A stretch of DNA of 64,000 bases from Heterostelium album PN500 (lineage: Eukaryota; Evosea; Eumycetozoa; Acytosteliales; Acytosteliaceae), in contig NW_008805085.1 in NCBI RefSeq assembly GCF_000004825.1, positions 310,001-374,000 of the forward strand, read 5' to 3'. Both the position numbers and the translations under genes were made by a program. The notes beneath the pieces were generated by a model. That model was given only the letters and a program-made list of their open reading frames with translations, was not told the DNA's origin and made no database searches. Shown piece by piece: positions 9,828 to 47,983 of the stretch. Numbering within the stretch: position 1 is the stretch's first letter; every line of letters starts with the position of its first letter.

Positions 9828-9843
9828 AAACCGCATGCGGTTT
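9828..9843. promoter_or_regulatory. 16-bp palindrome downstream of tRNA-Ser
   Basis: AAACCGCATGCGGTTT is a perfect palindrome. Its CCGCATGCGG core starts 19 bases after the tRNA 3' end. Closely similar palindromes follow both tRNA-Gly genes in this window. Role unknown: termination, Pol III factor binding and insulation are all possible. Confidence 0.5.
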
Positions 9844-31640: not shown

Positions 31641-31691
31641 GCGGGAAACCCATTGATTTTTTTTTTTTTTTTTTTTTTTTTGCAAAAAAAG

Positions 31692-31791
31692 ATTTGTTGA
31701 CTCATGATCAATCAACAAATTGCAGGTATTGATATTAACCTGCTAGTTCGTGTTTTATGTTATATTTACATTCTCACACAGGCCGTGAGAA
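31692..31791. ncRNA. three-hairpin structured region, copy 1
   Basis: Hairpin A: ATTTGTTGA (31692-31700) with TCAACAAAT (31712-31720). Hairpin B: GCAGGT (31722-31727), loop ATTGATATTA, ACCTGC (31738-31743). Hairpin C: TTCTCAC (31771-31777), loop ACAGGCC, GTGAGAA (31785-31791). Copy 2 at 47217-47313 has the same B and C loops with different but paired stems, which indicates a selected RNA structure. It lies just before the poly(A) end of the retroposon, so it is probably the element's 3' UTR structure. Confidence 0.6.
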
Positions 31792-31799
31792 ATATAGCC

Positions 31800-31875
31800 A
31801 ATAAAATGTTATTATTATTATTATTATTATTATTATAATTATTAATATTATTATTATTATTATTATTATAAATTA
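31800..31875. repeat. ATT/AAT trinucleotide repeat
   Basis: Two blocks of about ten TTA units each, separated by a short AT stretch, inside the retroposon copy between the ORF fragment and the hairpins. A simple microsatellite. Confidence 0.8.
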
Positions 31876-32236
31876 TTAATTAATAAGTTGAGTAGTATTA
31901 CGATAGAATAGATCTAACAGTAGTTGCGTGTTGATGAACAACAGTATAAAGTGGTGGCACGTAGTTGGAAGGATTAAGATTCCAATCAGATTTAAATTTA
32001 CGCGTTAATGCAGAGCAATCGACAGTGACTCCTTGGGAGATTGAATTAGCGATCGTGAAGTTAAGCTTGTGGTAATTGGCATCGATTAATTTGGTGTAAT
32101 GGGTGACTGCTCTCTTGACGGTATTTTCCAGCTTGTAATGGGTACCATCACCAAACATTTCACAGGACAGCGCCTGCCATAACGAATGTACGATAGCAGC
32201 AGTAAGGTACCCATTGATAATCCATCATCAACACGT

Positions 32237-32249
32237 TACGCATGCGGTA
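32237..32249. promoter_or_regulatory. CCGCATGCG palindrome downstream of tRNA-Gly 1
   Basis: On the tRNA strand it reads ACCGCATGCGTA; the inner CGCATGCG is a perfect palindrome. It starts about 25 bases past the tRNA 3' end. It matches the motif downstream of tRNA-Ser and of tRNA-Gly 2. Confidence 0.45.
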
Positions 32250-32272: not shown

Positions 32273-32343
32273 TGCGTTGTCCGGGAATCGAACCCGGGTC
32301 TCCTGCTTGGTAGGCAAGAATTCTGCCACTAGACCAACAACGC
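32273..32343 (-). tRNA. tRNA-Gly, anticodon ACC (copy 1)
   Basis: A complete 71-base cloverleaf on the minus strand: acceptor GCGTTGT/ACAACGC, D region GTCTAGTGGCAGAA, anticodon stem CTTGC/GCAGG around loop CTACCAA, T arm CCGGGTTCGATTCCCGG, discriminator A. The anticodon (32309-32311) is ACC rather than the usual GCC. TTTT follows directly after the 3' end. It would read GGU, and GGC if A34 becomes inosine. The sequence is identical to the copy at 47410-47480. Confidence 0.95.
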
Positions 32344-45600: not shown

Positions 45601-47118
45601 GTTCTACCTCATTTGAACCATGGACTTAATAAAGGTGGATGGGAGGAACCAAAGTTAAACTCAAAGATAATACCTACTCATACATTAATATTATCTTGTT
45701 TAGATTTAATTGTAAGTCTATAGAAACAAATATAGATTAGAAATTAGTTTAGTTTATTAACTTTTTTAATTTATTAGTTTAAATTTATTAAAGATTTTGG
45801 AACTGAAAAGAATTTGGGTACATGTTTAACCAATGATCCATTACCAAAACCAAAACAAATAGAAGATGCTATCAAGAGTGAGATCAAACGTTTAGAGGAT
45901 GTTTGTCAAGATACAGCAATTGCTCATGCATTCTGGGGTGATGCCGATATCATTATTGCAATCCTCTCAAAACTGTATCCCTATTTACCGGAACGTGATA
46001 TTCCACAGCACCACCAGTTCATTCAAAGTCTCTATCAGATTGAAATGAAAGTAACTTCACCTACTTTTGCAGCAACTGTTGTCAGAACACTACTGGAACT
46101 CAGTAATATAGACAATGACACTATGAACATTGTCAACGATATTGCAAATCATCTGATACACAGTGAAGCTGATCAAGAAGAAGATATCGATGTCGATGAC
46201 GATGATAACCTGGAGCCAAGAATATTGAACAGGAAAACTCATATTCAGGTGGAAGCAGAGTTTTTCAAACATATCAATAGTGAGATTGACAAGTCGAGAG
46301 ATCTTATCGTTCAACTCAAGAAGGATTGGACACCCAATCTCACAGAGAATGCAGAGATCAAGTTGAATCGTATGAGGAATCGTATCTATGATTCGCTGTG
46401 TCTCTCTTGTCAAGCTATGGACAAACTGGCTAGAGATGTCACTCCCTATCAATTCTCTCCTCAGAGCTCTGATAAATTGTTAAAGACACTCAAGAAGCTC
46501 TTCACCATATTGACAACATTGGTATCTGCAATGACCACATTGAACTGTCATCCCAACGACAAACTGAAAACGCTAATCGAGAGCAGCTCTGAACTCTACA
46601 CCAATGTACACAAGTCGATTACACAGTTTGACAATATCAACAAGAAAGACGGTTTGTCTCGATCAGAAAAAGCTAGGATTTACAGAGAAGCAAAGTTCTT
46701 ACCACTTTTGGCATTCACCTTGGAGAAATACGAAGCAACCGTTATTCGCTATGAAAAGAAACTGAACATCAAAGAAAGACTGGGTCAACACTTTAAGAAA
46801 GCTGAAATCAGAGATTTCAAAATCGACAAGGAACAACTCAGACGTTTAGAAGAGAATGCAGAAGACGAAGAGGAAAAACAGAAGCCAAAGAAGAAAAAGT
46901 CAGCTCCCAAACCAAAGGCAACAGTTGTAAAGAAGAAAACACAAACTAAAAAGAAACCCACGGCACCAAAAGGAAGATTAACTTCAAAGAGAGGTGGTAG
47001 TAGAGGTGGTGCAACTAGAAGAAGAGGACGTAATGATGAAGATGAAGAGGGAGAAGATGAAGATCAATACAATAATGATGATGATGAAGATGATGATAAC
47101 AATAACTATGATGATTAA
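42648..47118 (+). CDS. fanci: Fanconi anemia group I protein (FANCI)
   Basis: Four exons (42648-43157, 43238-43536, 43635-45711, 45778-47118) join in phase to 1408 residues, close to human FANCI (about 1330). It is a long helical solenoid. Family-like stretches are VSHQLLLLSSQGLKGMI near the start of exon 3, RRLGTEILFQLFTIHENVSE and RELEARSSAIGGFLQLLKNI in the middle, and near the end REAKFLPLLAFTLEKYEATV with RDFKIDKEQLRRLEENAEDE, which parallels the [20 protein letters not shown]...RDFKI end of FANCI. A basic, then acidic low-complexity tail follows, containing RGG-like residues. FANCI pairs with FANCD2 as a DNA clamp in interstrand-crosslink repair. A KKGGGSKKRK stretch inside could be a nuclear signal. 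Confidence 0.88.
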
Positions 47119-47197
47119 TACAATTTAAATAAATTAAAAAATTGATTTGACATGTAAGAGATTTTAAAAATGTAAGAAAGTTCATCTTTAGGATTTG

Positions 47198-47342
47198 TTT
47201 TTTTTTTTTAAGTATACTTGTACTACCATTACTGATAGTCAAGGTGTAGAGATTGATATTACCCTACATTTAGTGTTTATTTGTTGGAGCAGTTCAGCCA
47301 CAGGCCGGCTGAAATTGCCTTAATTTTTGGATAAGGGATGTT
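47198..47342 (-). repeat. second copy of the tRNA-linked structured repeat, with poly(A)
   Basis: On the minus strand: hairpin C' TTCAGCC (47293-47299), loop ACAGGCC, GGCTGAA (47307-47313); hairpin B' around loop ATTGATATTA (47252-47261), stem 47245-47251 with 47262-47268 and one A-C mismatch; hairpin A' TTG-ACTA (47218-47225, one bulge) with TAGTCAA (47236-47242); then 12 A (47198-47209). The order, loops and spacing to poly(A) match copy 1 at 31657-31791, but almost all stem sequence differs. It ends 68-70 bases from tRNA-Gly 2 beside CCCATTGA, the same flank as in copy 1. No ORF piece and no clear target duplication. Confidence 0.55.
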
Positions 47343-47373
47343 CCCATTGACTTGGCAGACGGAGTTTAAGTAG

Positions 47374-47385
47374 TCCGCATGCGGA
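47374..47385. promoter_or_regulatory. 12-bp palindrome downstream of tRNA-Gly 2
   Basis: TCCGCATGCGGA, a perfect palindrome, 25 bases past the tRNA 3' end. It shares the CCGCATGCGG core with the sites after tRNA-Ser and tRNA-Gly 1. Confidence 0.5.
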
Positions 47386-47409
47386 ACCAACATGTTTAAA
47401 AGTTTAAGA

Positions 47410-47480
47410 TGCGTTGTCCGGGAATCGAACCCGGGTCTCCTGCTTGGTAGGCAAGAATTCTGCCACTAGACCAACAACGC
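47410..47480 (-). tRNA. tRNA-Gly, anticodon ACC (copy 2)
   Basis: 71 bases, identical to the copy at 32273-32343, including loop CTACCAA with anticodon ACC at 47446-47448. All stems pair. The first T run on its strand is TTTT about 10 bases past the 3' end. The flanks differ from copy 1 except for the palindrome and a CCCATTGA block, so this is an old duplication or separate insertion, not a recent segmental copy. Confidence 0.95.
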
Positions 47481-47983
47481 TTTGATTTTTAATGAATCAA
47501 AATTTTATTTATTTAAATGTCTCTGGTTTTTATTTCTAAACTTTTTTAGTTATTGAAAACCCACAAAATAATTAAAAAAAGATAATTAATAAATTGAATC
47601 TCATTAGGAATAAAATTGAATATCTCACTTCTCCCTTTTCAAATGCTATTGTCGATAATATAATTTAAATTATCTCTAAGTTTGGATGCAAATTTACAAA
47701 ACCAGTTTTTAGTTGATCAAGTTGTCTCTAATTAAGTTTAAAACTATATTATACAAATTGACAATGTAGTCTATCCTTTATTTTATTTTTCTTATGAAAA
47801 ATGTTTTCAATTTGCTAAAAAGTTAAGAATTATTTAATAATTTTAAAAAAGTTGTATTATTTTATGTAGCCAATTTAACCATAAAATAAAAAGAAGTTTT
47901 GGAATTTTATAAAAGAAAAAATTCTACATAATTTAATATACAAGAAAAAAAAAACAAATCATATAATAAAAAAGCTAAAATAA

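Follow-up and report, generated by a model that had tools for sequence, protein, structure and literature searches.

LINEs that need their own 3′ stem-loop are termed stringent. In the zebrafish elements ZfL2-1 and ZfL2-2, the ORF2 protein is described as recognizing the stem of the tail generally and its loop specifically (PMC4176376). In plants, the SINEs of maize and sorghum share their 3′ end with the L1-clade element LINE1-1_ZM, with a hairpin in the maize pair whose stem changes compensate each other around an invariant loop, and the Chlamydomonas pair SINEX-3_CR/L1-1_CR is listed with a common, poly(A)-terminated 3′ end (PMC3747384). Among Amoebozoa, the section of the LINE/SINE pair table considered here from the same paper has entries for Entamoeba alone, whose non-autonomous SINE-like elements share a LINE tail. 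The dictyostelid TRE3 elements Pp_TRE3-A and Pp_TRE3-B are non-LTR retrotransposons with APE and RT domains and a poly(A) end, which lie ~100 bp downstream of tRNA genes (PMC5006619); the terms SINE, hairpin, stem-loop, and secondary structure do not occur in the main text of that paper. RepeatMasker at default settings has counted 88 ‘SINEs’ in Dictyostelium discoideum and 57 in D. purpureum, with no family described in the portion of the source that bears on them (PMC4683709).

Here we compare with these systems two three-hairpin structures from a 64,000-nt window of the Heterostelium album PN500 genome (NW_008805085.1, positions 310,001–374,000), which had been noticed from the sequence and read as two copies of one structured RNA. 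The collected data give good support to the conclusion that the hairpins form the last ~110 nt before the poly(A) in two retroelement families located downstream of tRNA genes. TRE3-type LINEs are already known in dictyostelids, and the tail is a further case of a 3′ end common to a LINE and a SINE; what is unusual here is the combination of three hairpins, a poly(A) end, and a putatively tRNA-derived SINE whose insertion sites lie next to tRNA genes. No description of a dictyostelid SINE family or of a three-hairpin tail was found in the literature searched, a body that lies largely outside subscription papers.

The two window copies and the strand of their RNA

Direct reading of both copies placed the three hairpins at 47217–47313 and 31692–31791, as had been claimed. 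In plus-strand letters, hairpin C reads TTCAGCC/ACAGGCC/GGCTGAA in the 47-kb copy and TTCTCAC/ACAGGCC/GTGAGAA in the 31-kb copy, so that the loop ACAGGCC is the same in both while the stem has three double changes. Hairpin B likewise keeps its loop, ATTGATATTA, with two double changes, and hairpin A is preserved between the copies in shape only. As isolated words, the loops are not rare in the window, with three matches to ACAGGCC against 1.80 expected and three to ATTGATATTA against 0.94 expected.

The RNA is the reverse complement of the strand on which the hairpins had originally been read, because one pair of hairpin B fits the minus strand only, being G–U in one family and G–C in the other where the plus strand would give A·C, and because the minus strand folds more stably. 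Against shuffled sequences, the 47-kb copy folded with z-scores of −3.87 on the minus and −1.39 on the plus strand; the corresponding values of the 31-kb copy were −4.86 and −2.38. The minus strand also carries the poly(A), the LINE coding sequence, and the tRNA-like head of the SINE. The parts of the two window copies described next, with their neighbouring tRNA-Gly genes, lie on this strand.

The 47-kb copy belongs to a 5′-truncated SINE with its poly(A) (47194–47370), which blastn aligned to a complete copy at 80.7% identity. Its first base corresponds to base 241 of the 443-nt complete copy and lies 39 bp after an upstream tRNA-Gly (ACC) gene (47410–47480). In the transcript sense, it comprises hairpin C (47293–47313, loop GGCCUGU), hairpin B (47246–47267, loop UAAUAUCAAU), and hairpin A (47217–47244), which adjoins the poly(A), visible as a T run on the plus strand (47198–47209). 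A target-site duplication was looked for at the ends of this SINE, and no clear one was found.

The 31-kb copy is the tail of a 5′-truncated LINE (31659–32208), in which the C-terminal end of ORF2, present as an open protein-coding stretch, is followed by the three-hairpin tail and then by poly(A) (31658–31681, a T run on the plus strand). Hairpins C (31771–31791), B (31722–31743), and A (31692–31720) were each located by direct reading, alignment, and folding. The insertion is flanked by a 10-bp target-site duplication, ATCAATGGGT, at 32209–32218 on the 5′ side and at 31648–31657 on the 3′ side, and 64 bp separate it from an upstream tRNA-Gly (ACC) gene (32273–32343). An Rfam scan of the window returned three tRNAs alone above the gathering thresholds and no family for the hairpins. 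A lenient scan of 46900–47600 likewise gave nothing but tRNAs above these thresholds, and a U4atac candidate (E = 0.87, 18.8 bits against a cut-off of 53) was set aside.

A LINE family and a SINE family with a common tail

The longest relative of the 31-kb copy among the loci examined, L071, matches it at 98.2% identity over 553 columns. Two distinct open stretches of L071 encode an endonuclease (PF03372, E = 3.7e-07) and a reverse transcriptase (RVT_1, PF00078, E = 2.5e-20). L071 is damaged, with a stop inside the RT and a frame change ahead of it. Copies of this family share their 3′ end but differ widely in where they begin, and this variable 5′ truncation fits target-primed reverse transcription, as expected. 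An apparently fixed LINE 5′ end proved to be an artefact of a query limited to the window copy; a longer query gave varying 5′ ends. The family thus combines an endonuclease and an RT in one element with 5′ truncation, poly(A), and target-site duplications, and is a non-LTR retrotransposon. It resembles TRE3 in this, in its APE and RT domains, and in its position downstream of tRNA genes (PMC5006619).

A 653-aa C-terminal piece of ORF2 gave at least 80 matches (from the best 68 of 243 candidates scored). Neither an undamaged ORF2 copy of the 31-kb family among the scored matches nor another copy spanning the whole piece among the matches listed was found, and the ORFs beside three copies contained no retroelement domain. 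Eight of the listed matches, at 37–42% identity, represent two further LINE families in this genome, which are 54% identical to each other and 37–38% identical to the 31-kb LINE. These families have long open frames, of 1107–1114 aa in five copies and 1133 aa in two, and near their poly(A) they carry a different hairpin (GATGG-TAAAT-CCATC and GATGG-TTTACA-CCATC; L072:2050-2150 and L074 complement 2700-2780). Pp_TRE3-A and Pp_TRE3-B are listed with four and two intact copies, respectively (PMC5006619, Table 1). The two other families appear to fit these counts better than the 31-kb LINE does, and the latter may therefore be a third TRE3-type family.

Complete copies of the SINE are ~440 nt long. 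Their 5′ end is fixed, 11 of 18 head matches beginning at base 1–3 of the query, and two copies are identical across 439 nt, which points to recent spread of the SINE. The head contains TGGCCAAGTTG and, 46 nt further, GATCGATCC, which match the consensus words of the A and B boxes of pol III genes; a box pair of this kind no more than 40 nt from the 5′ end arose 27 times among 200,000 random sequences matched in first-order composition. When the head was compared with 24 distinct tRNAs from the examined loci, the best score was 52, to tRNA-Phe, whereas 500 random heads reached a mean of 29.7 and a maximum of 47. The head was not recognized by the Rfam tRNA model. It is doubtful that pol III transcribes the SINE over its full length, because a conserved T5 lies ~10 nt past the B box in all six copies inspected, whereas most tRNA genes are followed by shorter T runs (longest run ≤4 within the first 15 nt of the 3′ flank in 29 of 32). 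Short, multicopy, and fixed at its 5′ end, with a 3′ end shared with a LINE and with duplications around several complete copies, the 47-kb family has the properties of a SINE. It differs from the Entamoeba elements, whose 5′ part is given as being of unknown origin, in having a tRNA-like one, and its partner is an APE-type LINE rather than R4-1_ED, EhLINE1, or EhLINE2 (PMC3747384).

Alignment of one complete SINE with L071 yielded a single match, the last ~105 nt (74% identity, E = 6.9e-09), the next best having an E value of 0.079. In both families, the tail runs in the transcript sense from hairpin C (GGCCUGU) through the linker AAACACGAACU to hairpin B (UAAUAUCAA), hairpin A, and poly(A), and loop C, the linker, and loop B are kept between LINE and SINE. 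The two thus share stem-loops with compensatory changes and fixed loops, as in stringent tails. The earlier description of two copies of one RNA is therefore only partly right: the RNA is multicopy with a common structure, but one of the two window copies comes from a LINE family and the other from a SINE family. A 3′ end common to SINE and LINE is also what characterizes the maize/sorghum and Chlamydomonas pairs; the plant elements have one hairpin region of ~50 nt, whereas the amoeba tail comprises three hairpins in ~110 nt and lies beside tRNA genes (PMC3747384).

Copies in the genome, pairing, and placement beside tRNA genes

Searches covered the source genome of the window, 32.9 Mb in 39 contigs. 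The 47-kb copy had 37 matches and the 31-kb copy at least 71 (from the best 40 of 105 candidates scored); the latter comprised 40 long matches at 92–100% identity, four shorter ones, and 27 weak ones that represent a hairpin arm matching on the other strand. Genome-wide counts of the tail were obtained with DNA patterns and reversed controls: the conserved linker with the hairpin B loop occurred at 80 sites and at none when reversed, and the hairpin C loop with the linker at 75 sites against six. A covariance model trained on 26 copies gave 61 matches at E ≤ 1 in 48 loci, a number that includes many of the training copies and some overlapping loci and is not an independent test of the model. 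Further copies with paired stems, rather than none or copies with unpaired stems, thus exist within this genome.

Pairing was analyzed in an alignment of 26 copies picked among 33 distinct tails (465 pair cells). Standard pairs filled 92.5% of the cells, compared with 78.0% in shuffles and 32–48% in slid registers; the covariation score was 0.380, compared with 0.157 and 0.027–0.059, respectively; and 69 cells were altered on both sides, compared with 28.1 in shuffles. Two of the five measures failed to exceed shuffles: the number of pairs showing a double change (8 against 7.5, a level reached by 259 of 500 shuffles) and further pair types (13 against 15.9, reached by 500 of 500). The eighth of the double-change pairs (columns 10/31) is weak, being unpaired in 14 of the 26 copies, which leaves seven clean double changes, in which stem pairs are altered on both sides and still paired beside unchanged loops. 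Because the copies fall into two clusters, the covariation is essentially one comparison, between two families. The proposal of selection on RNA structure with sequence-specific loops, in a multicopy family, is supported.

The sequence-only reading had pointed to tRNA genes and poly(A) as landmarks, and both links were borne out. Tails end directly at poly(A). For the tRNA link, the best 63 of 1,916 tRNA candidates were set against 105 distinct tails, hand-pooled from the matches to both copies and both patterns; two rows from the pattern of hairpin C loop plus linker (C10, C15) were left out as not element-like. Seventeen of the 63 tRNA genes have tails within 3 kb, 19 in total, against an expectation of ~1.2 for the two sides combined. 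All 19 lie downstream of the tRNA gene, as in TRE3, and 18 are on the same strand; the single tail in the opposite orientation is G000:C3:607206-607229, near the tRNA at C3:607324-607397. A survey of the 5′ side of 60 element copies (25 LINE, 35 SINE) located a tRNA gene within 2.5 kb for 36, in every case on the same strand, and at 39–130 bp for 20 of these 36. For the other 24 copies, no tRNA was found in the 5′ flank examined, which was shorter than 500 bp for 14 and longer than 1 kb for ten, including L071. Of 19 copies inspected for target-site duplications, 11 had one, although A runs make a few of these duplications weak.

Proposed recognition of the tail, its alternatives, and the tRNA flanks

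Based on these data, we propose, with a probability of roughly 80%, that the hairpins serve as a 3′ recognition tail both for a TRE3-like LINE that targets tRNA genes and for a separate, dependent, tRNA-derived SINE. That the LINE protein recognizes this tail appears to be the best-supported explanation, because the pair has the published signature of LINE/SINE tails, here with three hairpins. The ORF2 protein of the LINE would bind the tail in the transcript, reading the stems by their shape and the loops of hairpins C and B by their sequence, and target-primed reverse transcription would then begin in the poly(A), at a nick ~40–130 bp 3′ of a tRNA gene. A SINE that retains the same shapes and loops would be copied by the same protein to the same kind of site. 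Fixed loops on altered stems fit the recognition mode of ZfL2-1 and ZfL2-2 (PMC4176376), which also have a 3′ tail stem-loop; the amoeba tail differs in its three hairpins with poly(A).

On slightly better than even odds, a tRNA-derived SINE would ride the tRNA-targeting LINE by imitating its three-hairpin tail, with almost every letter of the loops and linker retained and stems rewritten but still paired, and would thereby inherit a ‘safe’ target adjacent to tRNA genes. Since other LINEs of the genome have a different tail hairpin, the tail, alongside the poly(A), would decide which element is copied.

The hairpins might instead act in the element RNA in some other way, in stability, export, polyadenylation, or packaging with the ORF1 protein, and be shared by the SINE for that reason. 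The position of the tail directly ahead of the poly(A) would suit such a role, and the identity of a binding protein cannot be told from sequence alone. We nevertheless regard this as unlikely, given that a SINE unrelated to the LINE elsewhere keeps exactly this tail, which is described as the usual sign of sharing the copying machinery of a LINE (PMC3747384). Far less probable is a reading at the DNA level, in which the conserved words are sites for a host or element protein and the inverted repeats are protein-binding palindromes. There is a precedent in TRE5-A, whose C-module is bound as DNA by a host protein. This module is carried at the 3′ end of the D. discoideum element (PMC5911963), but at the loci studied here the G–U pair fits a minus-strand RNA alone, and the loops stay fixed while the stems change. 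The free-standing small RNA that the sequence-only reading had implied is the least credible alternative: a structured gene family akin to the dictyostelid Class I RNAs (PMC7919456), short, stem-closed RNAs that carry a conserved motif and have a promoter element upstream, could likewise be multicopy, have conserved loops, and lie near tRNA genes, but the hairpins lack an Rfam match and are the 3′-terminal tail of poly(A)-tailed minus-strand retroelements, with target-site duplications, continuity with LINE coding sequence, and variable 5′ truncation.

How a LINE protein chooses its RNA could be tested directly with this pair, in a lineage whose elements end in poly(A). The pair is a natural one in which evolution has separated stem shape from loop sequence, in social amoebae, whose tRNA-targeting retroelements are under experimental study, and it would show how a non-autonomous element can inherit safe, site-directed integration.

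The flanks of tRNA genes showed two further features. Stacked and nested LINE and SINE insertions accumulate there (L046, L056, L062, L068, and others), and at L056 one SINE has apparently inserted within another SINE copy. In addition, short palindromes occur 15–34 bp 3′ of tRNA genes, in the window at 9831–9840, 32238–32247, and 47375–47384, and no description of such a palindrome was found in the literature searched. In a sample of 32 distinct tRNA genes, biased in that the flanks had been picked for having retroelements, CCGCnnGCGG (21) or TGCGCGCA (8) was present with at most one mismatch downstream of 29 and upstream of none. Across the genome, CCGCATGCGG occurs at 63 places against one for the reversed control, and ATGCGCGCAT at 37 against three. 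Among 50 listed sites of CCGCATGCGG, those within 500 bp of a tRNA gene belong to nine of the 63 genes and all lie 16–34 bp downstream; the palindrome is possibly a pol III or targeting signal.
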